In this document: piece after piece, positions 2,664-64,000 of the stretch
Layout: each line of letters starts with the position of its first letter
Numbering within the stretch: position 1 is the first letter of the stretch
DNA from: Amphibalanus amphitrite
Taxonomy: Eukaryota > Arthropoda > Thecostraca > Balanomorpha > Balanidae
Length of the DNA stretch: 64,000 nt
Reading direction: 5' to 3'
Assembly (NCBI RefSeq): GCF_019059575.1
Contig: NW_024881536.1
Location: forward strand, 124,001 to 188,000
Notes under the pieces: model-generated
Seen by the model: the letters and a program-made list of their open reading frames with translations, nothing else
Database searches by the model: none
What the model was told of the DNA's origin: nothing
Program-made: the position numbers and the translations under genes

Positions 2664-5600
2664 CTAGTCCGTCTCCTCCGCGTCAGCGGCGCCTCCCTCG
2701 GCCTCGTCCGACTTCATGTGCACGAGCAGGGCGTTCTTGGCCACGTTGTCGCCCACGCGGTACATGACCTTCTCCACGACGCCGGCGGCCGGCGCTTTGA
2801 TGACGTACTGTGAGCGGTGGACGGGGGGGGGGGGGCGTGTCAGACATTGCAGACGGACCACGGGGGGCAGCCATGGGCGGCGGGGAAGATCCCTAATATA
2901 ACTTCAATGAGTCTGCCAGTCAGTGGGGATTCACCTCCAACGTCCATGTCTGCAAGTAACGAAGGGAAATACATACTTATGACTTGCCATGGTGGTAATA
3001 TGAACCAGCGACAACTCATGATAAAAATTAATCAAGATGCGGTGGTGAGGATGTGAGTGCATCGCTAGTCGCTACCCTACTCTCTCATTTGAAATAAAAA
3101 TTTAGTCCATTCAAATAGGACAGCGCAAAGATGCTGTCACCTTTAAGCCATCAAGCAAACAAGGAAGCTTCATCACTCCCACACGTTCTACCACCTAGAC
3201 TTCCCAATAGCAGCTGCCATACCCAGTTTCTGCCATCCACGTCACTACTTCCCGCCACCCATTTCCCTAGTCTCGACTGACCTCCATTTTCATGGCGATG
3301 ATGACGACCAGCGGGTCGCCGGCCTTGACTGTGTCGCCGTCCGTCACCATCACCTTCTCCACCACACCGGGCATGGGAGCCACGGCGTCCCCGCCGGCCG
3401 CCGCCGCGCCGCCGGCAGCCCGGAACTTGGGCTCCGGCAGACGGAGACTGCGCACACCCGCCTGGGGACAAGGGGTGGGACAGGGGTAACAGCCGCAGAG
3501 CGCGCACCAGTCTCGGGAAGAAAACAGTTGGGGAAACTACGAGGCGAAAGTCAAAAAATGGATTGGTCAATAAATGGACTTTTGATGACCATATATGGGC
3601 ATAAATGCAGCCCCCGCTAGTAAGGGTGAAAAACGGTATAACAAGCCGGTACTTGCGGTATCGCGTCCACTTATTGGAGAGAAAAGGCTTCCATTTTTCA
3701 CTAGGAATTAGTGTGATTTGATTAAATTCGGCGAATTGACTCGAAAATGGCGATAGGAAAACGGCTTTTCTGCAGGTTCTGGGCGTCACAATCAGCTGGC
3801 CATTCCATAAATGGATTGGTTTTATGAAATAAAATTGTTAAAAGATTTAATTTAATTACAATGAACAAAAATATTTCATTCTAAAATAATAACTTAACTA
3901 CAATTAGAAAAACCATAAACAAAATAATAAAAATAATGACATTTTTAAACCACGGTACTGCTTACATTTTTTGGCGCGTCTGTTTCAATCCGCCATATTT
4001 GCTAATCACGGTTTGACCTTGCGTTGTAACTCTGCGATTTAGAGCCGCCAGTTAATTATGCACCGGGTGAGTGTAGGCCTTGTGTGGTTAAAAAACATTC
4101 TTATGCCTTATTTTTTCATTTGAATGCTAAAATTCATTGAAAAGATGAAGTTGTCTGATTTTATGACCATATATGGTTATCGCCCCGCCCACTCCAGCCG
4201 CTGATTGGCTAATCCAATTTTTGTTTGGCTCCTCGTAGTTTCCCCAACTGAAAAGGGTACCCGGTGCCGGGAATACAGTATAGTCGACTACAGAATGATG
4301 TTTCACTCCTCAGAAGCTATCAGTTGACCGGAACGCTAAGCTGTGCCGTTTATCACGCAATTAAGCGTGTCGATTGTGAGCATTGGGACAAAGCTATAAT
4401 CTGTGAACTCAGCCCGTGTGATGCGGCACAGCCTACCACTCCAGGCAAATAATTGCCTGTGAAAAGTGGAACATCATTCTGTAGTCGACTATACACCGGA
4501 GAACTGCGCTCACAGCCACAGGCTGCACACACCTTCCTGATGACGGGAGAGAGACAGGGGCAGCGGACGGGATGAGAAATCAATCGTGAATTCACCATTG
4601 ATTCACATTCGATTGGAATTGGGATTGGCTTGGAAATTGCCATAGTTACGTGGTATGACTAACAATCCGTGCAAAAAAAAATCAATTTGCGTCAGCTCAG
4701 CAAAAAAAAAAAATGGAATTCGGTCAAAACATCCACTTATCTGAACATTACCTAATAAACTCCTCCCATTGCGCATTAGAGCCGTTTTCTCTCTAGAGCC
4801 GGCACTAACCTCAGTGAAGACGTGGACGGCGTCTGCCTGTGGCACCACCTGTACGTGGGTCACCTCTCCCGACACATCTGAGGTCAGGGTGAGGACGCCG
4901 TCTTGCTCCGTCAGACTGCCGGACACCTGCCGGTCACAGGTCAGAGGTCAGGGGTCACAGGTCAGGGGTGAGGGTGAGGACACCGTCCCGCTTCGACAGA
5001 CTACCAGATACCGGCTCATCACAGGTCAGGGCTCAGAGGTCATATACCTGGGGATCAGAGGTCGCAGCTTAGCTGTAGCGAGGGAAGGGAGACGTTTTCA
5101 AGATATGCAAATACAGTGCTAGTCATGATAGTGAATAATGAACAGCTTTTGCGTCTTAATATCTAAAAACAGTAGCTAATAGCTAACAGTACACTTTGCT
5201 GATAACACGCCAGTAGGCACCACTGGATGACAACTTAACACTGAAGACAGCCACCAAGGGGGAAACGACATTCGAATGCCGGATATACCACAAACGACGC
5301 TGGAATTCTGCACACACTTCACAAACTGCACACCTGATTCCGTCACTTTCCCGTACTGCACCGCTGTGCTATGACCTAGTAGGTACTCTATCGCCCACAC
5401 CCACAGTCCCGGTATAACTGTAACTGGTACTCTATCGCCCACACCCACAGTCCCGGTACTGTACCTGGTACTCTATCGCCTACAGTCCCGGTACTGTACC
5501 TGGTACTCCGTCTCCCAGTCCCGGTACTGTACCTGGTACTCTCCATCCCCCACAGTCCCGGTACTGTACCTGGTACTCTATCGCCTACAGTCCCGGTACC

Positions 5601-8600: not shown

Positions 8601-11600
8601 CACAGGCACTCGTGATCCGAAGTACCAAATTCTAATCGTATATTTTTTTCATACTCCCCAGTCCCCGTTACAAGCTACAAGTTAAAGTGGCTTATTCATA
8701 TAATCACCTTATCCTTTACTTGTATTTCCATATACCGTTTAATTATACCGGATCAACTATTCAATTTCCCCTGATCCGGATCACAAGTCCCCATAGAGGC
8801 CGGGTTAGCCATGAATATATCTCAGACAAGCACTCCTAGGCATACGCCACAGGCGAGGCATAAAACACGACGCTAAAAGTGCGACAGATGCTCTAGAAGG
8901 AAGCGGAGAATTTCGGTCCTTGTCCGAAATTCCATAAATGCACGAGCATCAAGAGTATGTATGTGATATCAATTCAAAATGATGAGCAACTCTGAAAAAT
9001 ATCCTCAACGGTTCGCGACATTCCAGCGAGTCGCTCACACATGCCCCACCGTTACCCAACCCAAAGGAGCGGCCGTTCCCGCATTCCTTATGAAAACGGT
9101 GGGTCCCATTAAGAGCCACCCAATGGTCACTTACCGCGTACTGGGCGAGGCAGCGTTTGAGTTTGCGCAGTGCCAAGTCACGGTCCTCTGCCCAGACCAC
9201 CAGTTTGGCGATCATCGGGTCATAGTGGACAGACACCTCGTCGCCCTGACGTACACCTGTCCGGGAGGAGGGGAGGGGGGGGGGATCAGTGAACGACGGG
9301 TAGATGTAACCGGAGCGCTTCAAAGGCCACACACGGGTTGGCTGATAACATCGCACGCGCCATTAAATTCAAATTGAAGCATTTCGTTCTTTAAATTTTG
9401 GGGGTGGAAAGGCATGCTGTCAACTCAAAATGCTCGCAAACCGAGTGGCAGGCATTTATGAAGTTTAAAATCTTGCGTTCGGCTTCCAAGAGCGACTATT
9501 CTGACGCACAGCCAGTCTGACGGCCACCCCAGGACGTGTCCCTGCCCGCCCGGCGCCGCACCTGTCTCGACCCTGACGTGTTGGTCTGCCGGCGGCGCGC
9601 TCAGGTGCAGCAGCGGTCCGGCGCCGGGCATGAAGCCGGCGCGCGGGTCCTCGGCGTACACACGCGCCTCAAACGAGTGGCCCAGGAGGGGGATCTGCTC
9701 CTGCTGCAGCGGCAGACGCTCGCCGGCCGCCACCTAAGGGCAGAGGTAAAGGGTCAGTCAGAGAACAGGGGAGCAGCGGCAGACGCCACCAGCCGCAGGA
9801 GACGGGAGGTCAAAACTCAGAAGGAGGGGAACAAGACAGCAGCGGCCGCCGCCCACCGGCCGCCACCTGAGGCCGGAGAGTGGCTGCTTAGTAGCACATA
9901 AGCCCAGCCCACTACGTCATTCTGTCACTACCAGGTAATCCCCCATATTTCAGTAAAATCAGTCTCACGGTACAATACTTTGTGGTGTGATCTTGAGCGG
10001 TCCTAGTCCGTCCCCCCCCCCCCGACCCTCAGTTCCTCGCAATACCCTGCCTCTCCTCACACAGCTGACCATCATCTGCCCCGTCCCTCCCCTCCCCTGG
10101 TACTGACCCTCAGCTCCCCCGCAGCACCCTCTCCCTCCCCTGGTACTGACCCTCAGCTGCCACTCGACCAGGTCAGTGCCGGTGATCATCTCGGTCACGG
10201 GATGCTCCACCTGCAGACGTGTGTTCATCTCCATAAAGTAGAACTTGTGCTCGGCGTCCAGGATAAACTCCACGGTGCCGGCGCCCACGTAGCTGACGGC
10301 ACGGGCGGCGCGTACCGCCGCCTCTCCGAGCTCGCGGCGCACCTCCGCTGACAGACCCGGCTGGGGGGGGGGGGGGAGAGGGGGCTTGGTCAGACTAGCC
10401 GAGGGGAGGGCTTGGTCAGACTAGCTGCCAGAATGGGGACGGGGAGGGGACACTCATGGTGAAAGGGACATTAAATAGTATGCCGTTTCGCGACAAATAT
10501 TTCCGAAAACCGGTATAAAACTCAAGCAAATAGAGACAATTTACCATCATGCAGCTGAGTTAAATGTTCAAAAGGTGCGTACTAATTCGAGTTTAGTTCA
10601 AGTTCGAGTTCAAGAGGTGCGTATTATGAATGCACATTAGACATGTCGTAGCCTATAACACAATTAAACAGTGCAGGGATCATACGTTCTCTAGCCTCTG
10701 GCTCACCGCGGGGGCTTCCTCGATGATCTTCTGGTGTCGCCGCTGGACGCTGCAGTCTCGCTCGTGCAGGTACACGTAGTTCCCGTGCTGGTCGCCAAAC
10801 ACCTGCACCTCAACGTGGCGCGGGTCGACGACAAACTTTTCCACCAGCATCACCTGACAGAGGTCGGCGGGGGAGGGGGGGGGGGGGGTCAGCTGACCAG
10901 CGGGACACCGGGGGATCGGGGGTCGGTATCGAGCCGGTGTGTGACCCCGGCAAATGCTTGCCATGCTGATCGCCGGGTTAGCTGGGCATCACAATTCAGG
11001 TCGACATTTTCATAATGGCAAGCACCACGACTTGCTCACCGAAAGCATGATTTCGCATAGTACAGTTTGCGTTTGAATCACACGAATTTGCAGACTACCG
11101 GAGGTTAGCGCCCTCGCCCTGCCGCACGACGGACTTACCTGGTCTCCGAACGCCTTGGTAGCCTCTCGCCGGGCCGACTCGAGCTGGGCGTGGAATTCGT
11201 CACGGGTAGAGGCGATGCGCATACCCTGCCAAAAGCGGGAGCCAGCGTCACTTAGAGCACGTCATGGGAGCAGACATCTAAACTGAATAACCCGATACAC
11301 ATTAGTGCAACTTCATTCAACATAACAGGCGCCCTTCATCGCTCGCAAGATAGGCATTATTACCTACGGAGCCCTGACGCAGAGGTGGAGTTCGTCCCAG
11401 GGAGAATTTGACCTCAGTCGCTCCTCAAATATAAATCGACGAGAACAGCATTTGTTATATCGACATACAATATCAAATTGTCAAACGTACCTACTATCCC
11501 ATGAAAGGCAGACTTTAACTCAAGCCCTCCCTATTTTTACCCTTTCTATTCTCCACTGTCTCCCCTCCTGCTCTCCCGGCCTTCACACCACACTTCCCTG

Positions 11601-13939
11601 CACCCTCTCGGCACGTGACCGTACCTTGCCGCCGCCGCCGCGGACCGCTTTGATCATGACTGGGAAGCCGATGGCGTCGGCCTCTGCCAGCAGCCGCTCG
11701 TCGCTCTGATCCTCGCCGTGATAGCCGCCGATCACGGGCACACCGGCCGCCGACATTATCTTCTTGGACGTGCTGCGAGCGGGCGGACGGTATACGGTAA
11801 GTGACAATCAGCGGTATTGCTCGGAAGTCGACACATTTCCATTAAATATATCCTCGTATGTCCGTTAGCAACACACCGTAGAGAATACTAGTATCGGCAT
11901 GACACCAGTAATAAACTGAGCCCCTCTATTACCTCCCACTTTCGTAATTATAAATGCATCTTTCGACATATGTATCGTATAAAGGTGTAGGGTATAAGCC
12001 CGCCTAGTGAATGTTCCTACATTCCTTTCACTTGTGAACGGTCAACGGTGGCCTTCCGGAGTAGCAGTCATTTCTCCATCGATTCCGCATCAACTGTCTC
12101 ACTAGCCATTTTACCTTCCGACGATCTCCTCTTAGAACCCACTCCCCGCCATTATTTGGAGATCCCGTCAAATTCGGTCCCCTATCTTTTGATGCCTATG
12201 TCTCTGATGGTCACTCAGTACCTTTTGATGCCCATCGCCCATGCCTCTGATGGTCCCCCGCACCTTTTGATGCCCATGTCTCCGACCGACCTCGTACCTT
12301 TTGATGCCCATGTCTCGATGTCGGACGGCCCCGTACCTTTTCATGCCCATGTCTCTGATGGTCCCCCGTACCTTTTGATGCCCATGTCTCTGATGGTCCC
12401 CCGTACCTTTTGATGCCCATGTCTAGATGGTCCCCCGTACCTTTTGATGCCCATGTCTCGATGTCGGACTGCCCCGTACCTTTTGATGCCCATGTCTCTG
12501 ATGGCGGACGGTCCCGTACCTTTTGATGCCCATGTCTCTGATGGTCCCCCGTACCTTTTGATGCCCATGTCTCTGATGGTCCCCCGTACCTTTTGATGCC
12601 CATGTCTCTGATGTCGGACGGCCCCGTACCTTTTCATGTCCATGTCTCTGATGGTCCCCCGTACTGTTTGATTCCCATGTCTCTGATAATCCCCGGTACC
12701 TTTTGATGCCCATGTCTCTGATGGACTGATGGTCCCCCGTACCTTTTGATGCCCATGTCTCTGACCGACCTCGTACCTTTTGATGCCCATATCTCTGATG
12801 GCGGAGGCCGGTGGTCCGACAAACGTCACGCCGGCCGCCTGGCACGCCTCGGCGAACTCTGTGTTCTCGGAGAGGAATCCGTAGCCCGGGTGGACGGCCT
12901 GGGCGCCGCTGCGGCGCGCCACGCCCAGGATCCGGTCGGCGCGCAGGTACGACTCCTGGGAGGCCGCCGCGCCGATATGGTACGCCTCGTCAGCCTGACG
13001 GGGAGGAGGGGAGCGGTTAGCGGCCGCCGCGCCGATATGGTACGCCTCGTCAGCCTGGTGGGGAGGAGGGGGAGTGGTGCCGATATGGTACGCCTTGTCA
13101 GCCTGACGGGGAGGGGGGGGGGGGGCAGCGGTTACAGGCCTGACCGAGAGGTGGGAAGCGGTTAGTGGCCTGAACGAGCGGTGGGGACTGGGGAGCGGTT
13201 AGATACTGGCGAATTAGTGCGACTCAATATCGACAATATCGATATGTAGTGATCGCGTTCGATTCATAGCCAGCGACTTTCACAACATAAAACAAATAAA
13301 GAGATATGTCGTAAACTCACGCACGAACGCGGAAAAGAGTAACGTTCTACTTCAACAAACACAGACAGCACCGGTCCAATGTCCATGCTTGTCCTCCTCA
13401 GCCCTGCCCAGTGTCCTCCCCACCCCTCTCCGCTCTCGCCCGTACCATGGCCACGTGCAGGGCGTTCCGGTCGGCGTCCGAGTACACCGCCACGGTGCGC
13501 ACTCCCAGCCGGCGCGCCGTGCGCATGATGCGACAGGCGATCTCGCCCCGGTTGGCGATCACCACCTTGTCGATGGCGCGGGTGGCGCCGCCCTGGTGGT
13601 AGCCGCGGGCAGCCAGCCGCCGCAGCCTGGGGAGATACGGTGAGCAGGACTGTCAGATTGACGGAGTGGTTGGTCATTGCTGCGTAATACAGTGTTTGTG
13701 ATAAAAACAACATGGTAAAAAAGTGAAGCTAGGAAAATGTAAAAAGGAGCACAATAAGAGTGACACAATGTATGCTTACATTTAGCACCAACTGAAGAAA
13801 AGGAATTTGTGAGCTAACTATGAATAGATACAGAGAACCAGTCGCTTGAAAGCAAAATAAACTGAAGAAGCAAGAAAAAAAATCATGGACATGTCTCAGT
13901 AGGTACTTACAGCATGTTTCCATGAAAGTACTTTGACAT
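2664..13939 (-). CDS. MCCC1: 3-methylcrotonyl-CoA carboxylase alpha subunit, mitochondrial (14 coding exons, 709 aa)
   Basis: The biotin-containing alpha subunit carboxylates 3-methylcrotonyl-CoA in leucine breakdown in the mitochondrial matrix, together with MCCC2. Exons in transcript order on the minus strand: 13939-13911, 13626-13446, 12994-12777, 11772-11625, 11225-11139, 10853-10707, 10360-10151, 9733-9562, 9256-9135, 6443-6294, 6029-5805, 4926-4810, 3461-3282, 2807-2664. Phases agree throughout and give 709 aa, close to the usual 700-730. The first 29-nt exon was chosen because its GTAAGT donor leaves the phase exon 2 needs. The resulting N-terminus is Arg-rich with no acidic residues, like a matrix presequence. 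Biotin carboxylase motifs include [22 protein letters not shown], the ATP-grasp glycine loop KAVRGGGGK and [13 protein letters not shown]. The BT/middle region follows ([14 protein letters not shown]), then the biotinyl domain with AMKM, Lys near residue 660. PCCA and pyruvate carboxylase are less likely because the middle region and C-terminal tail match MCCC1. Introns carry duplicated splice junctions and a nested gene. Confidence 0.95.
3525..4250. mobile_element. Non-autonomous inverted-repeat element (MITE-like, ~726 bp) in MCCC1 intron 12
   Basis: The ends are inverted copies: CAGTTGGGGAAACTACGAGG at 3525-3544 and its reverse complement ending at 4250, with weaker similarity continuing inwards (ATGGATTGG against CCAATTT; ATATATGG motifs near both ends). 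AAAA flanks both sides (3521-3524 and 4251-4254) and may be the target duplication. The interior is AT-rich with no transposase. Superfamily not assigned. Confidence 0.7.
4279..4493. mobile_element. Short inverted-repeat element (MITE-like, ~215 bp)
   Basis: The left end TATAGTCGACTACAGAATGA (from 4279) continues as TGTT and is matched by its reverse complement ending at 4493, giving arms of about 28 bp with one or two mismatches. The element lies directly after the larger inverted-repeat element in MCCC1 intron 12. No coding capacity. Flanking TA is consistent with a TA target. Confidence 0.7.
4927..5040 (-). repeat. Diverged partial duplicate of the 5' half of MCCC1 exon 12 plus its acceptor
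   Basis: Next to exon 12 (4810-4926), the stretch at about 4964-5030 repeats the order seen inside the exon and acceptor: GTGAGGGTGAGGACACCGTC, then CAGACTACC, GATACC and ATCACAGGTCAG. The true copy reads GTCAGGGTGAGGACGCCGTC with CAGACTGCC, GACACC and GTCACAGGTCAG. AGGTCAGRGGTCA repeats join the two copies. On the coding strand this is a second acceptor-like site with a decayed exon start upstream of the real one. Confidence 0.65.
5385..5830 (-). repeat. Tandem array of the MCCC1 exon 11 3' edge and donor site
   Basis: About a dozen copies of a 30-40 bp unit (plus strand: CTGTACCTGGTACTCTATCG followed by CCCACAGTCCCGGTA) fill the start of intron 11. On the coding strand each copy carries the end of exon 11 (GGCGACAGAGAGTACCAG) followed by GTACAG or GTACAGT, so the exon's last codons and the donor have been copied repeatedly. 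Copies near the exon (5700-5830) keep the exon sequence best. Distal copies lose the extra exon bases and only keep TACCAG|GTAC. Confidence 0.8.
7093..7100 (+). promoter_or_regulatory. Possible TATA box for the nested SRCR gene
   Basis: TTTATACA lies about 130 bp before the ATG at 7222, in the only AT-rich patch before the GC-rich coding block. The spacing would give a 5' UTR of roughly 100 nt. This is composition and position only. Confidence 0.3.
7222..8019 (+). CDS. Secreted SRCR-domain protein, intronless, nested in MCCC1 intron 9
   Basis: A single uninterrupted frame of 265 codons. I chose the ATG at 7222 because it sits in a perfect Kozak context (GCCACCATG) and starts a hydrophobic signal peptide (residues 1-21, ending RAGA). 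A short heptad-like helix follows (residues 23-60, [20 protein letters not shown]). Then comes a Cys-rich stretch with EGF/EB-like spacing (residues 72-142). A scavenger receptor cysteine-rich domain (about 151-260) has [21 protein letters not shown], the [13 protein letters not shown] motif and a final VRCEP. SRCR domains bind ligands, microbial surfaces or other proteins outside the cell. No membrane segment follows the domain, so it is probably soluble. It lies antisense to MCCC1 in the 6444-9134 intron. The lack of introns in a gene set full of them suggests a retrocopy or a compact immune-type gene. Ligand unknown. Confidence 0.8.
   Translation: MSRLTVLLLVCLAGAASRAGADQLERLGDRLSALEDAVADLAALQRSQGDLLRRLTGLTLGERQAAALGAACTDTLDCRLTDGAVCSGGVCACPAGTWNFSNSTCRPAAAEGDPCQLSGDCTATSPTLTCSGRPRRCAERVCFPSVAGGYRYRLVGGASCDEGRVQAVGPDWGGDDFEWWQVCADSWGPQEARVLCRSLDRGGGEVVRADAVSRQRVWKVSLNCAGSESALQECVSRLGRPRIGISDCRQGSVAAVRCEPRKPLF
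8020..9134. other. Rest of MCCC1 intron 9 downstream of the nested gene
   Basis: This stretch holds the likely 3' UTR of the SRCR gene and AT-rich intron sequence. I see no exon, RNA gene or clear repeat in it. Confidence 0.4.
10085..10165 (-). repeat. Duplicated MCCC1 exon 7 donor junction
   Basis: TCCCCTGGTACTGACCCTCA occurs twice, from about 10095 and from about 10138, and a weaker copy (CGACCCTCAG) lies near 10023. On the coding strand each reads CTGAGG|GTCAGTACC, the exact 3' border of exon 7. The array therefore copies the donor site and the last exon bases about 42 bp into the intron. Confidence 0.65.
12170..12800 (-). repeat. Array of about 17 copies of the MCCC1 exon 3 donor junction
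   Basis: A unit of about 35 bp (plus strand GTACCTTTTGATGCCCATGT then CTCTGATGG and a spacer) repeats around 17 times. The copy at 12777-12800 is the true exon 3 end. On the coding strand each unit is ...CCATCAGAGACATGGGCATCAAAAG|GTAC, encoding the conserved SAIRDMGIK and a GT donor, followed by GGGGGACC-type spacer. Variant spacers (GTCGGACGG, GACCGACCTC) recur in blocks, a sign of higher-order duplication. Exon 3 was ended at the innermost copy because only that copy continues the MCCC1 frame into exon 4 at the family's usual length. Confidence 0.9.
12961..13125 (-). repeat. Three copies of the MCCC1 exon 3 acceptor and exon start
   Basis: The block GCCGCCGCGCCGATATGGTA then CGCCTCGTCAGCCTG occurs at about 12963 and 13023, with a shortened copy from 13077. 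On the coding strand each contains an acceptor (CAG) followed by GCTGACGAGGCGTACCATAT, the start of exon 3. The period is about 54-60 bp. Together with the donor array on the other side, this exon is bracketed by copies of both its own edges. A poly-G run (13112-13124) follows. Confidence 0.85.
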
Positions 13940-21100: not shown

Positions 21101-21182
21101 CTCGCTTGCCTTCCTGATGAGTCGCCGGGACCAAGTATCTCGCCGCCTGCTCCGGCTATTGACATGCCCGGAGCGGGAGTGA
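17994..21182 (+). CDS. LINE ORF2: AP-type endonuclease plus reverse transcriptase
   Basis: The open frame of 1062 residues overlaps the end of ORF1 by 125 bp in the +1 frame. ATG at 17994 is the first in-frame start and a second (AMPERG) lies 12 bases on, so translation by reinitiation or frameshift is possible. The endonuclease domain (about 45-300) shows AYNCEG, LSESWLS, VVAGDFNCA and SHIDHIAV, the Asn, Glu, Asp/Asn and Asp/His positions of the exonuclease-endonuclease-phosphatase fold. The RT domain (about 530-830) shows the NYRPISLTSCTSKLLEM motif, LDARKCFDKIWHDGL, RRGTRQGAILSPILANAY and the catalytic YADDLLLLS. These enzymes nick target DNA and copy the element RNA at the nick. All active-site positions I can identify are intact. 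No RNase H follows. Confidence 0.9.
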   Translation: MRVAMPERGIETLAAHLPPGTPETTTAGHGSAARYPSRGVANRELPENATIAIGAYNCEGLLSAFKYIDEYVLPLCDILVLSESWLSRAEEVYAPRIFTSAGHSELLVFQSFAMEVPPGVGEGRRRGGLALVCRRRPGLTFKSCSCDDPRLCGVTVLMDGRPVLTVIGCYMPYWDGQAGNSEEYDSVIAKLDALIMALRPSAPVVVAGDFNCALPRLPATSRPPLWQRLRGFTRHSVAMQQLLDQYELVAAEFLFPQQVNFTYARADCKSHIDHIAVPFSLLPRVAGCQILPPHPENLSPHQPLVCRLLVATAAPTETTHRAISRATPVPDSDLLCWDRVDRLEDYKHILTGMLVTQLPSCGTSLDALDSTISRCLLAAAREAGCVKQRRRPKPWWTPATAAARDRVRFWLHVWTSCGRPLHSTVYSCYQSARREYRKARRTAALAPVQQEARLLHQLKRNGNTNAFWRRVQRSRRGPLPPGGGRTASEFGRHFEAVHADEPSLLDSEQAQIAAAVEERARRYSTLATTRTVTVSQVADLLRRLPLRKVPGADGVTAEHLIYGCSPPLLSALAQLLSACLSSCNVPATFAESVVVPLLKKSQLDPNNLDNYRPISLTSCTSKLLEMLLLDELEASFCPHDLQLGFVKQRGTSEASILALETIQWCRQRDLPVYAANLDARKCFDKIWHDGLFHRLAQHLRPNSWLLMLAWYRRLQAHIAFDGAISDSFRIRRGTRQGAILSPILANAYLHPLVAALDVSDLGADLYGHHVPAVCYADDLLLLSTNARNLSTLLDVVDDFAKTWRLEFVHPEPVRTKSHCMVFGAELLSEVPRWSLSGQQLSTRQQSEHLGVVLDGSLSAAPHVQHRASRARASLYGLAPAGMLTSGLCPADKCFLWKTIIQPALTYGCVAAPLNARDMTILCSAQATSIKVVLGLPRSAHHSALLAAADIQPAHELLRAACFRTLKDAMRSEHRLQQALLSGITKLAMCPTELVGSLLIQLHEMCDCNLSALLGVAAGRPCSDRIYPQRAPDGLADSLAFLMSRRDQVSRRLLRLLTCPERE

Positions 21183-21520
21183 GTGTCGCCTGCGACATCA
21201 ATGTGTGGCCCCTGCTCACCCACTGTCATGCTTTGTGTGATGTTTTGTGTGTGCCTTTTTTTTCTTACTTTCTTGCCAACTTTGGTGCCTAATAAACTAT
21301 GATGATGATGATGATGACATAGGAAGGTAAAATTTCAAATTCAAATGCTTTAAAAATAAGGAGCCTTACAGAAGTTCCTGGTCTATGTTGCAATCCAACA
21401 TGCAATTATGTTGTTTATCTAACGAATCCGGAACGGGGGTCGGGGAAATACCCAGAAAATACCGAAAATACCCAAGCCCCCTACCTCCGCTCGGCGTTCG
21501 GCCTAAAAGGACTAGAAATA

Positions 21521-39063: not shown

Positions 39064-39115
39064 TTACCTACTGATGTTTGCCTACCGGGGGATAAGGAAA
39101 AAGTTACCTGCATGA

Positions 39116-52100: not shown

Positions 52101-53986
52101 GCGCTCTTATTGCCCCACGTGCCGTACTGTACTGACCGGATAGGAGGTGACTGCATCCATCGACAAGCAGTACTCTTGCATCTTTAGGCGGGCAGCGATA
52201 GTGTGATATAACTCATTAGCATAGTTCTCGCATTCTGTACCGAACCTTTTACCCATATCCAACTAGCCGTCGAACCCCTAAATCACATCTGCATCGCATC
52301 GTAGCTTTCACAGTAGCAGTCTCTGAGCCGTCTACCCGTCGCTTCCAGTCCCCACAAACGTGTTTTCACACATAGCTCTTCACCATTACCGTCAGTTCAC
52401 CGCCTGTTCTCCGTCTGCCGCAGGGCCAGCGGCGCCTGGACGCGTTCTTCACGGCCGCCTATCGCCGGGACGCGCCCACCGAGGGCTCCAAACGGCTGCA
52501 GGAGGCGGTCCGCAGAGTCCGCGGTGACGACCCGCCGTCCCCGCCTTCACGTGGAGCGGAGCCGAGCGGCCCGGAGCCGGGAGCGGCGGCGGATCCAGAC
52601 GCTCTCCTGGATGACGGTCTGGATGAGCTGCTGGCAGCGGTCGAGGAGCCGCTGGATGATGCTGGTGATGATGACGGCGCGGGTGACGCGTTTACGGAGC
52701 CGATGGATGAATGGGATGGTATGAATGGTGCGGATGGCCTCGGCGATGGAGAGGCATTTGAAGAGCCAAGTGGAGTAGAGTCCACGGTAGAGTCGGCCCA
52801 GCTGCCGGACGTTGTGCCCAGGCCGCGCGCTGTGCCTCGTGGGTCGGCCAGCAGGGGCGCCCGAGGTCGGGGCGCCACCGGCGGCCGCGGCAGAGGTCGT
52901 GCTCGCCCCAGGAAACCGGTTTCGTTCTCAGCTGATGAGCCGGGCCCGTCCTCCGCCGCCGCGCCGTCCGCCCCGGCCACCTCTCGGTCGAGCCCTGCGG
53001 CGTCCCGCTCTGCACCGGTGTCCGGCGAACTCTCCTCTCTGGACCCGGTGGCCCGGGAGCGTGTGCTGCTAGTCCGGCGTCTGCGGGACCGCGCCAACCT
53101 CATCCGCTCCCAGATCCAGCACGAGAACCCGCCGGCGGCGCGGCCGGCCGCCCAGAAACCCTCCACACGCCAAGTGCGCGCACAGATGATGGAAGGACTG
53201 CTGAAACACAACCCGCGACTGAGACTGGAGCGGGAGGCGCAGCTCCGGCGCCGGCTCGGCCTGCCGCCGCTGTCGGCCGGGCGGGGTCGGTCCTGCCGCG
53301 ATCCGGCCGCGCGCAGGGAGGAGAGCTTCTCTGAGGTACTGGCGGCGCCGGACCGGAAGCCGGACGGAGCGGCGACGGCTGGAGACAGTGAGGGAGGTCA
53401 GACTGGACAGGAGTCGGGGAAGAAAACGGCGGAGGGGAGCGCGGCACAGGGAACGGGGGCCGGTGATGTCTCGGCTCAGCCGCTAACAGAAACGGCGGCA
53501 GTGCCACCGGCAGCCGCGTCGGCGGACACTGGAGCCCAGCAGCCAGCCGCCGCGCTATCTAACGCTGGTGGAGCTGCAGGGACATCGGCATCTGAATTAA
53601 AGTCCGTTCGTACGCCGGGCAGCGCCGCCCGTCCACCCCGCAGTACCTCGGGGGCAGCCAGCGCTCCGGCAGCCGCCGGACGCCGTCCTCCAGCATCACA
53701 GGCGTCGGGTCGGCGTGAGTCGGCCGCCGACCGTCTGCGGCAGGCGGCGGCGGCGCCGGACCGGCCGCTGCCCGTGCTGCCCGCGCCGGCCGCCGCCGAG
53801 CCGGCCCCGCAGCGGCTCCTATCCGAGCGCCGCCAGGCGGAGGCGCGGCGGCAGGCTGCCGAGCTGCTGCGGGCCGGCGGCCGGCGCCGCGGACAGCGAG
53901 CGGGGGGCCGGCGGCAGGCGCCGGTCCGCCGAGCTCCGGCCGCGCCCCGCGCCGGGGGGCTCTCCGAGAGCAGCGACAGCGACTGA
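40171..53986 (+). CDS. ERCC5: XPG/ERCC5-type DNA repair endonuclease (11 exons, 1633 aa)
   Basis: The structure-specific nuclease makes the 3' incision in nucleotide excision repair and works with TFIIH in the nucleus. Exons: 40171-40281, 44617-44769, 45127-45317, 45654-45864, 46094-46192, 46463-48400, 48866-48959, 49218-49337, 49961-50194, 50805-50992, 52424-53986; all phases match. The N nuclease region starts [12 protein letters not shown] with metal ligands Asp30 ([11 protein letters not shown]) and Asp77 (VFVFDGG). A long acidic spacer (about residues 150-900, mostly one 646-codon exon) replaces the usual R region. The I region has [27 protein letters not shown] and [16 protein letters not shown], so all catalytic acidic positions are present. 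Exon 11 opens with GQRRLDAFF, a PCNA-binding PIP box (about 1115-1122), and continues into a disordered Ala/Arg-rich tail with basic NLS-like stretches. The length exceeds the usual 1100-1250 because of the spacer and tail. FEN1 and EXO1 are excluded by the spacer and the HRLCKLL-type helix. Confidence 0.95.
40739..41691 (+). pseudogene. Decayed LINE reverse transcriptase in XPG intron 1
   Basis: RT-like blocks appear in shifting frames: [14 protein letters not shown] (about 40797), [20 protein letters not shown] (about 40945), [40 protein letters not shown] and, after a stop at about 41312, [20 protein letters not shown]. The order matches a LINE RT (PDG, IFKKG, HGFRxxRSC, LDxxKAFD, RPxLEYA), but the catalytic YADD block is missing and several frameshifts are needed. 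Probably CR1/Jockey group. Confidence 0.75.
42640..43592 (+). pseudogene. 5'-truncated LINE RT C-terminus in XPG intron 1
   Basis: The segment begins after an 18-base G run (42623-42640). It carries the degraded active-site block [12 protein letters not shown] (about 42736), then a frameshift at an A run (42840-42847), then [20 protein letters not shown] and a 258-codon frame ending [20 protein letters not shown] and stop. The tail resembles the fragment at 33820, suggesting a related family. The YADD motif reads YCDD here. Confidence 0.75.
48380..48515 (+). repeat. Four copies of the XPG exon 6 donor junction
   Basis: ACAGGGACGTCCAG|GTGAGT occurs at the true border (48400/48401) and again with borders near 48434, 48473 and 48507 (the last reads GATGTCCAG|GTGGGT). 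Each copy holds the final exon codons (YRDVQ) and a strong donor, linked by TAGTTACGACATG-type spacer. The unit is 34-39 bp. Confidence 0.9.
49575..49985 (+). repeat. Array of XPG exon 9 acceptor and exon start
   Basis: The block CTCCGCCGGCCAGGTCTGAC followed by SCGCGGCCASCCCGTTCACTGAA recurs with borders near 49593, 49682, 49732, 49821 and 49879, ending in the true acceptor at 49960/49961. A longer spacer (GCTCCCTGCCCTATGCCGCG, then GTCATTCTGTCCTGACGTTC) alternates with a short one, so the higher-order unit is about 147 bp. Only the last copy continues into GGCCAGCTGGTCTGC, the conserved exon. Confidence 0.9.
50365..50835 (+). repeat. Array of XPG exon 10 acceptor and exon start
   Basis: ACGGTACGGCAG|GGTTTCCGTC then GGAGGCGGTGATGAC appears at about 50364-50400, 50463-50497 (diverged), 50577-50608, 50693-50722 and at the true acceptor 50793-50830. 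Between copies a spacer with CTGTATCTGGTGTATCA and CTGTTATTCTG repeats. The unit is about 105-115 bp. Each copy has an acceptor and the exon's first codons (GFPSEAVMT). Confidence 0.9.
50968..51180 (+). repeat. Array of XPG exon 10 donor junction
   Basis: TCCTGGACAGATACAAACAG followed by AAACAG|GTGAGG occurs at the true border (50992/50993) and again with borders near 51036, 51080, 51124 and, diverged (GACAGAAGCAG|GTGAG), 51169. The unit is 44 bp including GACTGGAGTGGGG. Exon 10 is therefore bracketed by arrays of both its edges, like MCCC1 exon 3. Confidence 0.9.
51286..51504 (-). pseudogene. Coiled-coil fragment, probably a transposon ORF remnant, in XPG intron 10
   Basis: An antisense frame of 72 codons reads as a heptad-rich helix ([20 protein letters not shown] and [19 protein letters not shown]). 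The composition differs from the surrounding intron and resembles the coiled coil of LINE ORF1 or gag proteins. No further domain adjoins it, so the identity is unproven. Confidence 0.35.
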
Positions 53987-55634: not shown

Positions 55635-58600
55635 ATGGCCAGACCTCGAGCAGTGTGGCTGGGCGGACTGATCATCGGAGGACTGCTTCAGGTAGGTGTC
55701 GGACTGATATTCTTGGACTTTCTAGGCAGGTGTGGTGAGACAGGGTGGCTTAGCGGGCCTCAGGACTGTTCCAGGTGGGTACGAGACTGATAGGCGGGTA
55801 TGGACCTCACGCAGTGACCAGTGTGAGTTGGCGGACTGACCATCACAGGTTTACCACATATGGGTACCGGGGAGGCGGGAGCGTGTCCCTCGACGATCAT
55901 GCGTTATTGACTCGGGAGGCTAAGTCTTATGATAATTCAGCTTATTAGGTCCAGGTGTTTCAATATGTGTATATCCAGTTAATGCGATACAGCCGAGATA
56001 CAGCCGTGAACTGATTGCTGTTACTTGTGACTTCAGTCGTTTGGTAGGCCGGTAATCTGCCCAGATAAACGAATGTAAAATGGAGCATTGCGCGTCTGTA
56101 CTGTTGTCAGTGGGTCGCACACCCTACCTCACCCGCCCATTCCCTCGTCTGTTCGCAGGTTCTGCCGTTAGCGGACGCTTTATTCAACGGTGGAGAGCCT
56201 ACCTCAAGTGACCGTCAGTCCTCGAACTATGGCCATGACACCATTGAACAAACAACCAAACAACTACATGACCTCATGGAGGCGGGCCGGATCGGCAAGA
56301 ACCTCAGGTACTGTTAGCGGTGGCTGAGCTGACTGTTCGTAACTGGCGCAGCCCGCTCGGTAGGCTGGGGATACTCTTGTACCAAATTCCACTGAGTGGT
56401 GGTAGCTCCGTGATTTGTGGGGTCGTAGTTATGTGGGGATTATACGTTTATGTTTTTGATTATGCATAGTTTCTAGACATTTTTTATGATTTAATGATGT
56501 TTAATGTTATCACTTATCACCAATAAAACAGAACTGCAATAACATATCACTGCTTCTCGTTCCATTCCGAGCAACTGAATCTACTACCCGCTGAACAAGC
56601 TCCGAGATTCTAATTAGTTATGACTGATCTTCGTTCGATCAGCGACCGACACACAACATTCGAGTTTTTTTCTCCTTTAAGCATTGCACCACCGATAGAT
56701 TCTGGGTGTGAATCGCACGACTACGGCCAGATTGAGGTCTTTTTGGTACCACAACTAACTATGCCGCCTAAACATCAATGAGGAAATCAACACCCATTAA
56801 TATATCACCTACTACGCATTGCCTAACCCTGCTGCAAAAGTTGGAGTGTTGTTGTGTGTTTCGACCATGCATATTAATCTAGCTGTTGATAATTTCATGT
56901 TATCACTTATCACCAATAAAACAGAACTACAATAACATATCACTGCTTTTCGTTCCATTCCGAGCAACTGAAGCCACTGCTCACTGAACAAGTTCCGAGA
57001 TTCGAATCAGTTATGACTGATCTTCGTTCGATCAGCGACCGACACATAACATTCGAGTTTTTTTCTCCTCGAAGCATTGCACCACCGATAGATTCTGGGT
57101 GTGAATCGCACGACTACGGCCAGATTGGGGTCTTTTTGGTACCACAACTAACTATGCCGCCTAAACATCAATGAGGAAATCAACCACCCATTATGGATCA
57201 CCTGCTTAGCATTGCCTACACAAGTTGTAGTGTTGTGCTTGTCGTGAGCCGCGTGCCGCGTGTGCCGCACACAGGGAAGTCGTACACTGCTTCGATTACA
57301 CTGAACTTCCCACTTTATTCCATGAGGGCCTCATGGAATGAGGCCCTTATGAAGAACGTCTCATGATGAGGCGTTCTTCCAGTACCACCATGCTGGAAAT
57401 CAGGTCACATTTGTGGGACTGACTCTCGCAACATTGCATATGAATACAGTAAATTGGGAAAATCGGTACCATATCCCGGTGAGGATATAACCATGCCGCA
57501 ACATGCATTTGGGACGACTTTCGCTGTGCTGTGGCATGGGACCTGGCACGATCCAAATCAATTTTGAACAGAACGATAATCTACCCAACGTGCAATACTT
57601 CCTTTCTCACAAGCACACATGCTCAAACGGACAATTATCTAACTTTGGCACGATCCTTATTACAATCAGAAACAAATAAACACATGAAAACCAAACGAAC
57701 TAACCAGAAATAATTAAAAATATGCTCGTGTTTGCGCGCGCAAATACAAGGTGCAGTGTGAAGTGTGTGAGTTGCTTATAGCTTCTCTGCATTTTGTCTT
57801 ATTGTACGCGGATTTATGCTCGACTTAGGTGCTACTTCGTCGAATGATGCATATTCTAGGCTCTATTTGAGAACCACCTAAAGCAAAAACATCGTCCCTT
57901 CCCATTAGTGTGCCCCATATGTAATATGTAAACGACGGAATTTCATCCGCTTACTGGTCACTGCTAGGAGTAACCACCGATACGATTTGTGCGTGAAGGT
58001 GGTGAAAACTATGGGCAATAGGCTCTCGCAAGAAGTATGCAGCCAATACTGGCATTGGCATAACCATAAACTTCCGAACCGTCCTCGGAGCGTGACCCGA
58101 ACCGGACAAACAATGCCCTGACCTGAACAGTGCCCAGAGCCCCAGAGCGTTTCGGGCCCGGTGCTACCTGACCCAAAGTCACCCAGAGCCCTCAGGGCCC
58201 AGTGTTCCCTGACGCAAACCCGCTCAGAGTGTTCTGGGTCCTGTGTTACCTGACACAAACTCGCCTGGACTACCAAACTACCTCGGGCCAAGTGATCCCT
58301 GGCCCAGACCTGACCGGTGTTCTGGGTCCAGACTCAGTTTTCTCTGACGACATATCTGGGTCACCAGTAGTGTGGGTCCAATGTTCCCCGACCCATACCT
58401 TGAACTCCGGGTCCGGTGTTCGTCCTGTGCACCTCAGACCCGCTCCTGGGAGCATGTCTTCAGTATCCACCGTGTGTGCCCGCCTCGGCACTCTGTCTCC
58501 ACTATATGTGTCACCCCGGTAATAGTCTGTCCCCGCCGTCTGTGCCTGTGTCGCCCTTTGAGCCACCGAGTGTGCCCTTCGTGTCAGCCTGTCCCCACCG

Positions 58601-61600
58601 TCTGTCCCCACCACAGGGAGTGCACCGCCTCGACGCACGTGGGCGGCACGCCGGCCGACCTGAGCCAGGCCGAGCAGATCCGGGACACCTGGCGAGACCA
58701 GCAGCTGGACGACGTCATCCTGAATCGCTACGAGGTGCTGCTGTCGCATCCCAACACCACCGAGCCGAGCAGGGTCAGTAAATTGTTTGAGAGGGTTGGG
58801 CTGGGAGCTGGAATTGAGGAAGGTAAATTGAATCTGACGTTACGCCAGCGAGCTTGTGCTCAGGACGAGAAGGAGCTGACTTGTGTGACCCTCTGTTGGT
58901 GACGCACGTAACTTCACTGACTTTGCGCAATCGATTCAATCAGTTTCCATTCTTGACCCCATGTCCCAGTGGCTACACACTCACCTTTGGTTCCTGTTCG
59001 ACATTCCGATGATTTGTCACGTTCACCTGTCCGTGTGTGCTCTCAGGTGTATCTGCTGGACGGAGGCGGTAACGTGAAGTTCACCTCGGCTCTCTCGGAG
59101 GAGGGGACAGAGTGGCAGGAGGGAGATGAGCTGCCCGCCTACCTGGCCTTCTGTCCCTCCGGAGACATACGCTCGGTACGTGTCGCAGAGTCGAGAGTGA
59201 CGTAGAAACTAGGTGATTTGTAGACCACCGTGCGAGCTGGGCTGACCAGCGGAACTCTTCCAGCTGAGATCCGCTGCCTCTTGTTTTATAAATACTATTT
59301 TTCAGCCGTCGACGTAACTCGCTTGAATGTGATTCCACTCAGCTGGTTTTGTTTCTTAATTACTCAAATACAACTTCGCTTGTCTATAAATGACATTTTC
59401 CGCCGGTGTTCGCCATCTCTGTATTATTTTCGGATATTTTTCTATCGTCCCCCGTGCCCTCGGCCTCCAGAGTGAGCTGGTGTATGCCAACTACGGTCGG
59501 CGCGAGGACTTCCAGCTGCTGCGTCATCTGGGCGTCTCGGTCCGCGGCCGGCTGGTCATCATGCGCTACGGGGCCATGTTCAGGGGCAACAAGGTCAAAA
59601 ACGCCCAGGAGGAGGGGGCCATCGGCGCCATACTCTACTCGTGAGTAGCCGTGTGCGGCATGCGTACCTAACGGCTGGGTGTGGCTCGCATCGTTGTGTG
59701 AAGAAGTGCTGAAGATGGATTGAATTGAATGCTAGGTTTCTATAGGCGCTGTTGTGGCATAATGTGGTCGGATGAACTTAATGTGAGTGTTTTTGTTTTT
59801 ATTATGTTCAAACCTACATAAAACCGCCTAGTCTATCTGTAATAAGTAGTGTCCACTGTCCACCAGTCCAGTTCCGTTCGAACAGCGCGCTGCTACCGCT
59901 CTGGTGTTTGTGTTTTGGGATCTGTTCAGTGCCCTATAACTGTGTTCTCGTACCACCAGTGACCCTGCCGACTACGGTAACCCGGCCAACGTCAGTGACG
60001 CGTACCCGGGCTCGTTCTGGCTGCCCGACTCGGGAATTCAGCGGGGCACCGTCACCTGGCGCGACGGCGACCCGCTCACCTACGGATACCCGGCCACAGG
60101 TAAATCACCAGCTCACCTACGGATACCCGGTCACAGGTAAATCACCAGCTCACCTACGGATACCTGGCCACAGGTAAATAGTAAATACCTGCGGATACCC
60201 GGCCACAGGTAAATAGTAAATACCTACGGATACCCGGCCACAGGACGTAAACGTAAACTCCGCCTAGTCCGCTCTCCTACTGATACCCGGCCACAGGTAA
60301 ATACTCACCGACAAATACCTGGCCAAATGTGAAAATTACAGTTCTACCGTTTGTCAAACATGATGATAGGCTAATACCTAGGAATGATAATGGACGTATT
60401 TGGCAAAAATTATAGAGTAATTGAGCTAGACCATATGATGAAAGGTCCACGATTATTGGTGTTGACGTTAGCTCGATGAACCGGTACCTATCACTGGCAG
60501 CTCCACTGTATACCTTTAAAGGCGAGACCCTCATGTTTTTAACCGTATCAGACCACTCCCGGCCAGCGATGCTGACCTTACCGCCGCTCCCGACGCTGAC
60601 CGCACCCTTTCGCCGCAGAGGACGCCTACCGTGACCGGTCGCGACCTCCGGCCAACCTGCCTCTGGGACCGTGTCACACTCTGAGCGCCAGGGACGCGCA
60701 CAAGCTGCTCAGTAACCTGGGAGGCCCCGAGGCGCCGGCGGCCTGGCGCGGCGCTCTGCGCACCACCTACCGGCTGGGACCGCAACTAGCTCGACCTGAC
60801 TGGTGAGGGGAGGCTGGGGCCGCAGCTAGAGCCCGGTCCGACTGACGTAATGGGACCGTTACTAGTCCAACTGGTGAGGGGAGAGTACAAGGACCGTAAG
60901 TTGCCAGACCAGACTGGTGAGGGGAGGCTGGGACTGTCACACAGCCAACTGTGGGGATTGTGAAGAAAAGCTTACTTTCTATCTTTTGCATGTTTCATCG
61001 AACGGGCACATGCCTTTGATTCTGTCATTGCGCCTGGATCACATTGCTGGGTCGATGTGTCTGATAGGATCAGTCAGTGTTGGGTTATTTATGTTTTGAT
61101 CAGTCAGTGTCAGTCAGTGTCAGTGTTGAGTTATTTATGTTTTGATATAAGTAAGCTATGGTCTATCGTCACATTGTGCGTCGTGCAATATGTCTGCGGT
61201 ATCTCGCTTTGTTGCGTCGTTGCAAGTCCGTTTCGCATCACTATTGACATCTATTTAGTTCATTTGGTACCTCAACGTAATCTAACCTAACGGATGAAGA
61301 TTTACGCCCGCCACCGAGTCTGACTACGTCAGTGTTTCAGGTCAGTCCGTCTGTTCGTCAACAACATGGAGCGGGTGATGCCCACCTACAACACGCTGGG
61401 CTTCATCCGCGGCAGCGTCGAGCCAGACCGATACGTCGTCCTCGGTGAGATTCCGATAAACTTTCCGATAAACCGATAAACTTTCCGTTTAATTATCGTA
61501 ATGGTCGAAGCTACTTTAAGCTACTCACTGAGCGCCATTCCTCATTTTCTTCTCAGCTGAGACTATACTGTGCTAAAAAAAAAACGCTGTGCTCCACTGA

Positions 61601-64000
61601 TTCTTTTGTCTCTAGGCTGTTCGGTTTGATTGCATTATGAGTGCCGAGTATTATTCTGTTTAGCTGAATAACGTCGTTGCCCGTTGCCAGGTAATCATCG
61701 GGACGCCTGGTCGTACGGCTCTCTGGACCCGTGCTCGGGCACGGCCACCATGATGGAAATGGTGCGCGCCTTCAGCCTGCTCAAACAGAACGGTGAGTGT
61801 CACGGGCTGGCTGGTGGGTGAGAGCGGCTAGCAACCCGTAATGACGACGAACGTAAATGGTTTGGTGTAGGTACACTCGGGGGCAGATTGATGTTCCACC
61901 ACTCCCTACCCATCGGGCTCCCATGGCTCAACACTGGCTGCTGCCAATGGCAGCACTGGCAGCACTGGCACTGGCAGGCAGTGCTGACCAGTGCTGAGAG
62001 CAGGCAAGACTGGCAGCAGCCAGTGCTGAGCCAAGGGAGCCCGATAGGTAGGGAGTGGTGGAACATCAATCTGCCCTCGAGTGTACGTGAGCTCTGAGAG
62101 AGAACTAAGCTGCAGCGTCATCGGGCAATTTCGATCGTTGGGAGGGGGGGAGGCTGCTTGAATTACAATGCCTCCTGCCTTGTGGTTATAACAATATTTT
62201 GAATACTGCTGAAGTATTTCACTAATGCGCGTTTTTTCGAGCATTCCAGGCCCCTGTACCGTTCAACGATGTCTCTCTCGGCCGTCTGACGCCGCCCTCT
62301 TACGCCGCAGGTTGGCGTCCGCGCCGGACGCTGGTGTTTGCCAGCTGGGGCAGCGGCGAGTTCGGCTACTATGGCGCCACCGAGCTGGTCGAGGAGTTCA
62401 TCACGCTGATCGGCGGACGCACGGTGGCCTACCTGAACGTCGACCTGGCCATCATCTACACGTACAACCTGTTCGTGGTGGCCACGCCGCTGCTGCAGAA
62501 CGTCACCGCCGAGGCCGCCAAACAGGTGACCACCGCGCGGCCGCCGCCAGTTGTGTCACAGCTCCAGGGGAGGGGGGGGGGGGGCAGAAAGGAAGGGCTC
62601 GAGTCGAGACACGGGACTCGGGAGTGATCTTCCCTCGGTGGAGTCGGGCGGTCTTGACTCAGTCTCAGTTCCCGTCTGTCAGGGGTACGCTGTGGGGTCG
62701 CTCAGTCGTGATGGGGGCCATACAGCAGACGTATTTAGATAGGTTGGTGAGTGGGACGGCGTGGTGGAGCTGTTAAGGACTCAATGTATTTTCGCTCATA
62801 TACCTGTATTTTGGGTGGCCAGCAGCCGCCTTAACTCAGTGGCAGAGCACTGGTCTTGTAAACCAGGGGTCGTGAGATCGATCCTCACAGGCGGCAGGCG
62901 CAGGTCTTGCCTTAATACTCGAGGCCTTTTCTTGACCCAAGACTAAGCAACACAGCCTATCATACTCTATCAGTCAACTGGTGGCTCAAGCACAGCCTAT
63001 TTACCCTATTCTTTCACTGATGAAGCTTTCAAGTTGCATGTCTAGCGGCTGACGAGTCGAGCTCCAAATATCCCGCCACATACAGTTCAGGAGTGGTCGT
63101 TGTCGTGTTATTGCCATGCGTGTATTCACTGTCCGTCCGTCTGTCCTCTGTATCAGGTGGCGGCGCCGGATCCGTCTCTCGGTTTCTCCTCGCTGTACGA
63201 CCACTGGCGCAGCCGCGAGAAGGGCGACCTGTTCAGCTATAACCTGGGATCGCCGAGCGAACACTGGTCCTTCTACCAGCTGCTCGGCACTCCTATCGTC
63301 TACATGATGTGGGAAATCGATTACGTGAGTACCTGCTCCATCTAGCTTCGCCTCCGTCCGAGTAGATTATGGACAAAGCGAATTAGAGATCTTCAGAACA
63401 TTCCTAAATCCATCCATGGCCTAGCCTCTACGCAATCTCCGAGCTTCCCGAACTTTGCCCAAATATACCTACTCCCTCTTCTAAGGAGCGCGAGAGCTGT
63501 CCCAAGACGCAAACGTCAGTTCATTGAACGCACACCTCTCTTCCCAGGACCGATGGAACCGGGTCGACTTTCCGCTGTACCACACGGTCTCTGTCCCCAG
63601 GACCGATGGACCTGGGTGGACTTTCCGCTGTACCACACGGTATCTGTCTCCAGGACCGGTGGAACTGGGTGGACTTTCCGCTGTACCACACGGTCTCTAT
63701 CCCCAGGACCGGTGGAACTGGGTGTACTTTCCGCTGTACCACATGGTCTCTATCCCCAGGACCGGTGGAACTGGGTGTACTTTCCGCTGTACCACACGGT
63801 CTCTATCCCCAGGACCGGTGGAACTGGGTGTACTTTCCGCTGTACCACACGGTCTCTATCCCCAGGACCGGTGGAACTGGGTGGACTTTCCGCTGTACCA
63901 CACGGTCTCTATCCCCAGGACCGGTGGAACTGGGTGGACTTTCCGCTGTACCACACGGTCTCTATCCCCAGGACCGGTGGAACTGGGTGTACTTTCCGCT
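55635..64000 (+). CDS. Glutamate carboxypeptidase II-like (M28B) protein lacking the catalytic Glu, 3' incomplete
   Basis: Exons: 55635-55691, 56159-56307, 58617-58773, 59047-59175, 59471-59640, 59960-60099, 60619-60802, 61341-61444, 61691-61792, 62311-62525, 63157-63324, then an exon whose acceptor is tandemly copied from 63548 to the window end. Phases agree for 525 codons. I start at the ATG at 55635 (CCACATGG), which gives a hydrophobic anchor ([12 protein letters not shown]); an in-frame ATG at 55368 would add an Ala-rich extension. The PA-like region has [34 protein letters not shown] and [11 protein letters not shown]. The peptidase region has [39 protein letters not shown] and PLYHTV. 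These supply all five zinc ligands of GCPII. The general-base Glu (ASWxAEEFG in active members) is Gly, so activity is doubtful. The family is type II membrane proteins (FOLH1, NAALADL, transferrin receptor). Confidence 0.88.
56504..57240. repeat. Direct tandem duplication of ~350 bp in intron 2 of the carboxypeptidase-like gene
   Basis: The stretch from ATGTTATCACTTATCACCAA to the AATGAGGAAATCAAC region occurs at about 56504-56860 and again at about 56897-57240, offset 393 bp and roughly 95% alike by eye. Each copy holds a small hairpin (GATCTTCGTTCGATC) and AATAAAA. It may be a satellite dimer or a duplicated SINE-like element. Confidence 0.85.
58100..58410. repeat. Degenerate ~55-bp repeat in intron 2
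   Basis: Recurring GGGYCCAGTGTTCCCTGACC-like blocks (near 58157, 58196, 58238, 58286 and 58376) alternate with CAGAGYGTTCTGGGTC. Copies are strongly diverged and unrelated to the next exon as far as I can see. Confidence 0.5.
60075..60300 (+). repeat. Array of the exon 6 donor junction (carboxypeptidase-like gene)
   Basis: CTCACCTACGGATACCCGGC followed by CACAG|GTAAATCACCAG occurs at the true border (60099/60100) and repeats with borders near 60136, 60175, 60206 and 60297, plus a variant CACAGGACGTAA near 60243. Every copy carries the exon's end (TYGYPAT) and a GTAAAT donor. The unit is about 31-39 bp. Confidence 0.9.
60770..60935 (+). repeat. Copies of the exon 7 donor junction (carboxypeptidase-like gene)
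   Basis: GACTG|GTGAGGGGAGGCTGG at the true border (60802/60803) recurs as AACTG|GTGAGGGGAG near 60872 and GACTG|GTGAGGGGAGGCTG near 60917. Each is preceded by diverged exon-like sequence (GGGACCG, ACTAG, CCAGAC). The unit is about 45-70 bp. Confidence 0.75.
61871..62086. mobile_element. Foldback element (~216 bp) in intron 9
   Basis: The left arm GTACACTCGGGGGCAGATTG continues through TTCCACCACTCCCTACC and the TGGCTGCTGCCA region. The right arm is its reverse complement ending at about 62086 with few mismatches, giving arms near 75 bp around a GCAGTGCTG/CACTGGCA-rich centre. Non-coding MITE-like foldback. Confidence 0.85.
62825..62896 (+). tRNA. tRNA-Thr (anticodon UGU)
   Basis: A 72-nt cloverleaf with the acceptor stem GCCGCCT paired with AGGCGGC and discriminator A. 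The D arm is CTC/GAG, the anticodon stem CTGGT/ACCAG holds the loop CTTGTAA (anticodon TGT), and the T arm is GTGAG/CTCAC around ATCGATC. A-box and B-box promoter sequences are in place. No intron and no encoded CCA. It lies in intron 10 of the carboxypeptidase-like gene, same strand. Confidence 0.95.
63546..64000 (+). repeat. 53-bp array of the exon 12 acceptor and exon start, running off the window
   Basis: Nine copies with an exact 53-bp period start at 63548, 63601, 63654, 63707, 63760, 63813, 63866, 63919 and 63972. Each has CCCCAG|GACCGGTGGAACTG then GGTGKACTTTCCGCTGTACC and ACACGGTCTCTATC. The encoded [14 protein letters not shown] contains the last zinc-ligand His. Variants GTCGAC, GTGGAC and GTGTAC alternate. 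Since 53 is not a multiple of three, the copies cannot be read as one long exon without frame changes. Confidence 0.95.

Follow-up and report, generated by a model that had tools for sequence, protein, structure and literature searches.

Minisatellite-like repeats that lie across 5′ or 3′ exon-intron boundaries, with units of 10 to 160 bp, are known from lancelets, where they are called mirages. They are described in Adh3, the globin genes BflGb6 and BflGb9, TnC, and PGBD5, with undisturbed mRNA and length instability reported (PMC3087553; PMC3902484), and the lancelet authors suggest a general phenomenon in cephalochordates (PMC3087553). In human segmental-duplication genes, the expansion of a minisatellite can include an exon-intron border (PMC2812944). 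In the literature surveyed, mostly as titles and abstracts, only the lancelet papers and the human report (PMC2812944) were found to deal with junction-spanning minisatellites, and a search by term of a Daphnia tandem-repeat survey (PMC3152781) returned nothing on splice borders. We analyzed a stretch of 64,000 nucleotides of the Amphibalanus amphitrite genome (the window; NW_024881536.1, positions 124,001 to 188,000). It contains junction-spanning minisatellites of the lancelet mirage kind, the likeness being one of anatomy alone. The phenomenon is already known and named; new here are its frequency and its occurrence in unrelated genes and on separate contigs.

Exons were placed by tblastn with human proteins, followed by GT/AG refinement by eye and by script. 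Four genes were modeled in the window, whose GC content is 53%: MCCC1 (minus strand, 13626-2664, 13 exons placed), a loqs/TARBP2-like gene (minus strand, 37569-30099, 6 exons), XPG/ERCC5 (plus strand, 40171-53986, 11 exons), and a GCPII/FOLH1-like gene (plus strand, 55636 to beyond the window end, 12 exons). Every one of their 78 junctions in the window has the GT/AG pattern, and splicing at them yields open frames. Exon numbering starts at the first placeable exon, and the numbers for MCCC1 and loqs are apparently one below those of the original prediction. The window also holds LINE-like open reading frames with endonuclease, reverse transcriptase, and RNase H domains (17757-22957, plus strand), a TTAGG-type telomere-like repeat internal to the contig (AACCT x16, 38990-39070), a tRNA-Thr(tgt) within a GCPII intron (62825-62896, plus strand), and, within GCPII intron 2, a pair of similar ~300-bp blocks at a distance of 393 bp (56497-57191). 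An element of ~150 bp (37769-37919) is present five times, with 91 to 95% identity, in 200 kb of another contig, C1.

To each junction we applied a strict test, in which the 24 bases centered on it were compared with every same-strand position within 600 bp on both sides, at a threshold of 20/24 matches. A local copy was found for 13 of the 78 junctions. The scores were bimodal, the remaining 65 junctions reaching 17/24 at most, and no match was obtained in 5,536 comparisons with non-cognate neighborhoods or over 20 rounds with shuffled ones. Three junctions scored 17/24; longer alignments back the MCCC1 exon 11 acceptor and the GCPII exon 1 donor as duplicates, for a total of 13 strict and 2 weaker cases, and give no such support to the MCCC1 exon 6 acceptor. 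The copies are on the intron side for 12 of the 13 junctions that passed the strict test. The 13th, the GCPII exon 12 acceptor, belongs to an array that is cut by the window end and had for that reason been modeled at the first copy; the sequence past the window corrects this, as the last copy joins the real exon. Donors and acceptors account for 8 and 7 of the 15 affected junctions, so that both 5′ and 3′ boundaries are involved. The original prediction, that exon borders in four genes are copied into their introns, is confirmed for the 11 exons that it named, each of which has junction-spanning copies, and the exon-intron border arrays of this window are real. The MCCC1 exon 7 acceptor (9733) and the GCPII exon 1 donor (55691) add to its list. 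Its statements that the copies carry the GT or AG site and that recurrent arrays in unrelated genes multiply decoy sites held across the four modeled genes, the former with the exception of MCCC1 exon 11 (exon 12 in its numbering), where the copy has diverged and lost its AG.

In MCCC1, on the minus strand, the donor of exon 2 (junction 12777) belongs to an array at 12173-12809 with ~16 intronic copies spaced by 34 to 43 bp, and its acceptor (junction 12994) has two upstream copies, shifted by -60 and -108, within 12956-13122. The exon 10 donor (junction 5805) has ~10 intronic copies (5376-5846). The exon 6 donor (junction 10151; 10084-10166) and the exon 7 acceptor (junction 9733, shift of -133; 9706-9879) are each duplicated, and the start of exon 11 (junction 4926) has a diverged duplicate matching 36 of 45 exon bases (4877-5044). 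In loqs, also on the minus strand, the last-exon acceptor (junction 30232) is duplicated at 30170-30367. The exon part of this duplicate is identical at 58 of 58 bases and its intron part has diverged; the identical part may result from a recent conversion from the exon. XPG, on the plus strand, has arrays at the exon 6 donor (junction 48400; 48369-48513), the exon 9 acceptor (junction 49961; 49586-49984), and the exon 10 donor (junction 50992, period of 44; 50962-51182), together with diverged copies of the exon 10 acceptor at a spacing of ~100 to 110 bp (junction 50805; 50356-50837). In GCPII, also on the plus strand, the end and donor of exon 1 have weak duplicates (junction 55691; 55648-55844), the exon 6 donor has an array with a period of 37 (junction 60099; 60067-60327), and the exon 7 donor has a diverged copy at a shift of 114 (junction 60802; 60787-60938). 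The exon 12 acceptor array, with a period of 53, comprises 24 copies, the first 9 of which are in the window (63534-64000) and the others in the next 1.2 kb; the best acceptor score among the 24 is that of the exon-proximal copy.

The repeated unit, ~26 to 140 bp long, consists of an exon end, the splice site, and some intron, with an exon part of ~6 to 65 bases as read by eye. The copies read are unspliced exon-plus-intron units, arranged head to tail and placed on the intronic side of the border, and with the copy next to the exon the reading frame is open and conserved. Units of this kind lend no support to RNA retro-copying, which the original prediction offered as one mechanism and whose mark would be spliced exon-exon sequence in the copies. 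The original prediction had the arrays starting at exon edges. This was not borne out: the junction can be anywhere in the unit, and its position fits a uniform spread (Kolmogorov-Smirnov P = 0.38; 20 of 22 arrays, with fractions entered by hand, the MCCC1 exon 10 donor set at 0.5, and the GCPII exon 7 and exon 1 donors left out). Breakpoints at the junction itself were rejected on this basis.

We then turned to hold-out sequences, 280 kb analyzed of 290 kb from three other contigs (C1, C2, and C3). An exon finder of simple design, for which the four window genes served as the training set, placed 27 of their 34 internal exons exactly; its predictions numbered 34 exons on C1, 15 on C2, and 12 on C3. 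The count was restricted to exons in four recognizable genes: DZIP1 (PF13815, 6e-33), a SWIM-domain gene (PF04434 match) that is presumably ZSWIM7, an SLC22-like transporter (tblastn values of 0.001 to 0.61, MFS_1 under the cutoff), and a musashi-like gene represented by two exons named by eye alone. Copies at 20/24 or better were found for 7 of 31 junctions (DZIP1, 3/19; ZSWIM7, 1/3; SLC22-like, 3/5; musashi-like, 0/4), or 4 of 26 when the SLC22-like gene, which had been noticed through an array, was omitted. Two of the acceptors, those at DZIP1 exon 3 and ZSWIM7 exon 1, are uncertain; neither is among the matches. Window and hold-out genes together give 20 of 109 junctions by the strict test. 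Among the raw predictions on C1, 13 of 68 edges reached 20/24, several being arrays misread as exons. These arrays are a warning for annotation, as gene finders can pick the wrong copy; our exon finder did so at MCCC1 exons 2 and 10.

In the genome as a whole, pairs of CAGGTRAGT motifs at 30- to 60-bp spacing numbered 363, compared with 173 for the reversed control (raw, unnormalized counts), and at least 33 arrays were present among 100 such places listed. Four of the 33 donor-type arrays were examined with 400 bp upstream of each. Each of them lies at the end of an exon that is open and scores positive for coding, and three of these exons have Pfam matches above the cutoff (SDF, Kinesin, and Ric8), the fourth being without a match. 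Look-alike arrays with differing pair counts, either alleles or paralogues, were seen among the matches listed (8 versus 4 pairs on contigs C56 and C161, and 3 versus 1 on C29 and C61).

Whether junctions are enriched for such copies depends on the control. Per position, local copies were found for 16.7% of junctions versus 9.0% of intron positions, a 1.9-fold difference. Circular shifts reached at least 13 junctions in 51 of 5,000 cases; for 76 positions drawn at random from introns, the mean was 6.9, with at least 12 in 86 of 5,000. These enrichment probabilities, like that given below for the families, are post hoc, because the window was chosen after the pattern had been noticed. Coverage by local copies climbs with GC content, from ~1% at 40 to 45% GC to 33% above 70% (C1 to C3, outside the window), and junction flanks have a GC content of 59% versus 51%. 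With GC matching, 12.9 of 78 junctions are expected and 13 were seen, leaving no excess per position. That control is partly circular, since the GC-rich intron DNA near junctions largely consists of the arrays themselves; without the junction families, the expectation is 1.8.

Counting families gave a different picture. A junction is contained in 15 of 22 non-exonic families (two of the 15 being the weaker cases), compared with 1.9 to 3.6 expected for placement allowing 40 to 80 exon bases. With one family split, the count is 15 of 23 versus 4.0 expected with GC weighting; GC weighting plus a twofold persistence raises the expectation to 6.7 families, with a probability of 0.005 of reaching at least 13. 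A four- to sixfold preference for junctions is needed to account for this excess. On the proposal that a mechanism favors duplication at splice junctions, the evidence is divided: the excess of families persists, whereas the per-position excess disappears with GC matching. The junction/intron ratio was 0.84 at 24/24 matches (2 of 78 junctions) and rose to 1.59, 1.63, 1.75, and 1.86 at 23, 22, 21, and 20 of 24, as slower decay at junctions predicts, but it then dropped to 1.64, 1.42, and 1.46 at 19, 18, and 17 of 24. In Tandem Repeats Finder (TRF) arrays, donor sites scanned at the lowest threshold numbered 11 versus 2 for the reversed control in C1 to C3 (49 arrays) and 6 versus 3 in the window (15 arrays). 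The same scan for acceptor sites gave 8 versus 5 in C1 to C3 and 2 versus 4 in the window, and thus no acceptor support there.

The probable origin of these arrays, in our view, is tandem duplication of the ordinary kind in GC-rich DNA, with tolerance at junctions and persistence through a frozen exon-proximal copy. Tandem duplication, by slippage or unequal exchange, would be frequent in the GC-rich DNA of this genome. Duplications inside coding exons would be purged unless in frame, and copies wholly within introns would drift apart. A duplication spanning a junction would be tolerated because the spliceosome would use the exon-proximal copy, leaving the mRNA unchanged; we infer splicing at that copy from the sequence. 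As selection would freeze the exon-proximal copy, the array should remain recognizable for longer and open to re-seeding. In this best account, much of the excess is explained by tolerance, by slow decay, and by the high GC content of exon flanks, and it is likely, though unproven, that some bias toward array birth at exon edges is left over. The account is favored by the junction test with its controls, the open frames given by the exon-proximal copy in all four genes, the acceptor score of that copy at GCPII exon 12, the intron-side position of the copies, the GC match, the uniform position of the junction, the negative test for intron gain (below), and the findings in the hold-out genes and the four donor-type arrays. 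Against it, the excess of families (15/23) goes beyond both GC weighting (4.0) and twofold persistence (6.7), and the scores of decoys often equal that of the true site, which leaves their neglect unexplained. Two coding minisatellites have periods divisible by three, one of 21 bp in XPG exon 6 (48077-48193) and one of 24 bp in DZIP1 exon 6 (locus L025, ~2460-2671), as is expected if arrays also arise within exons and only in-frame ones survive.

The family excess is what a raised rate of tandem duplication at the borders would produce, be it through R-loops, open germline chromatin, or exon-edge repair, with the four- to sixfold preference as its measure. Donors and acceptors being struck alike (8 and 7 of 15) and the recurrence of the pattern in the hold-out genes fit with this, but GC-matched introns erase the per-position excess, perfect matches show none (ratio of 0.84, from only 2 of 78 junctions), breakpoints are not located at the junction, and many arrays occur even in the 200 kb of C1, a stretch that yielded little to the exon finder. 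Such directed birth is rather doubtful as the main cause. It is a tentative possibility that exon borders are true hotspots of array birth, several-fold above GC-matched DNA, with about one junction in five carrying a mirage and thousands of near-equal decoys handled by exon-proximal choice.

It may also be asked whether selection keeps exon-matching arrays, as the original prediction offered as an alternative, with the extra sites helping to recruit U1 or U2AF or feeding regulated unproductive splicing. GT or AG is intact in 59 of 63 copies, a hand count inflated by the choice of copies by similarity that includes the site, and most donor decoys score close to the true site, many the same; those of GCPII exon 12 score below it. 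However, in nine arrays the GT or AG was retained only about as well as the neighboring exon bases, and the periods disregard the reading frame. Fifty-five copies were evaluated (GCPII exon 12 left out), with the site lost in 4 and intact in 51. Of these 51 decoys, 42 are predicted to bring a premature stop, and the other 9, among them the two acceptor copies upstream of MCCC1 exon 2, lie in frame and stay open. These results speak against the proposal, and we consider such selection improbable.

In another reading, the arrays would be what remains of introns gained when an exonic AGGT segment was duplicated in tandem (Rogers model); in the lancelet globin study, mirages are proposed as a way in which new introns can arise (PMC3087553). 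In a comparison of 38 introns, their starts matched the next exon at a mean of 6.1 of 20 positions, versus 5.8 for non-cognate exons, and intron ends matched the previous exon at 6.6 versus 6.3. With resemblance near the non-cognate level, this model was rejected as very improbable. Least credible of all is false expansion by the assembly, for although highly repetitive arrays are error prone and the copy numbers given here are those assembled, the copies have diverged to varying degrees, some cases have just two, several contigs are concerned, a conserved exon is joined to the last copy of the GCPII exon 12 array, and XPG positions 48200-49000 are found at a single place in the assembly with no second copy, so that no merged second haplotype is seen there.

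So many near-equal natural decoy sites make this genome a test bed for exon-proximal splice-site choice, and the same genome could be used to ask whether transcription or splicing shapes the birthplaces of minisatellites. Dense mirage-like arrays in another animal would widen the puzzle beyond cephalochordates. Tandem duplication of splice-site sequence is shared with AGGT intron gain, but the resemblance of exon sequence across the intron is absent here. The human system concerns recent paralogues with altered gene structure, whereas the genes described here are conserved and their predicted protein is unchanged. The lancelet mirages are closer: as in them, the unit spans the exon-intron boundary, both types of boundary are affected, and many copies carry AG or GT. 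Unlike them, the arrays reported here are from another animal, affect 20 of 109 junctions, include one array of 24 copies, and are known from genomic sequence alone.
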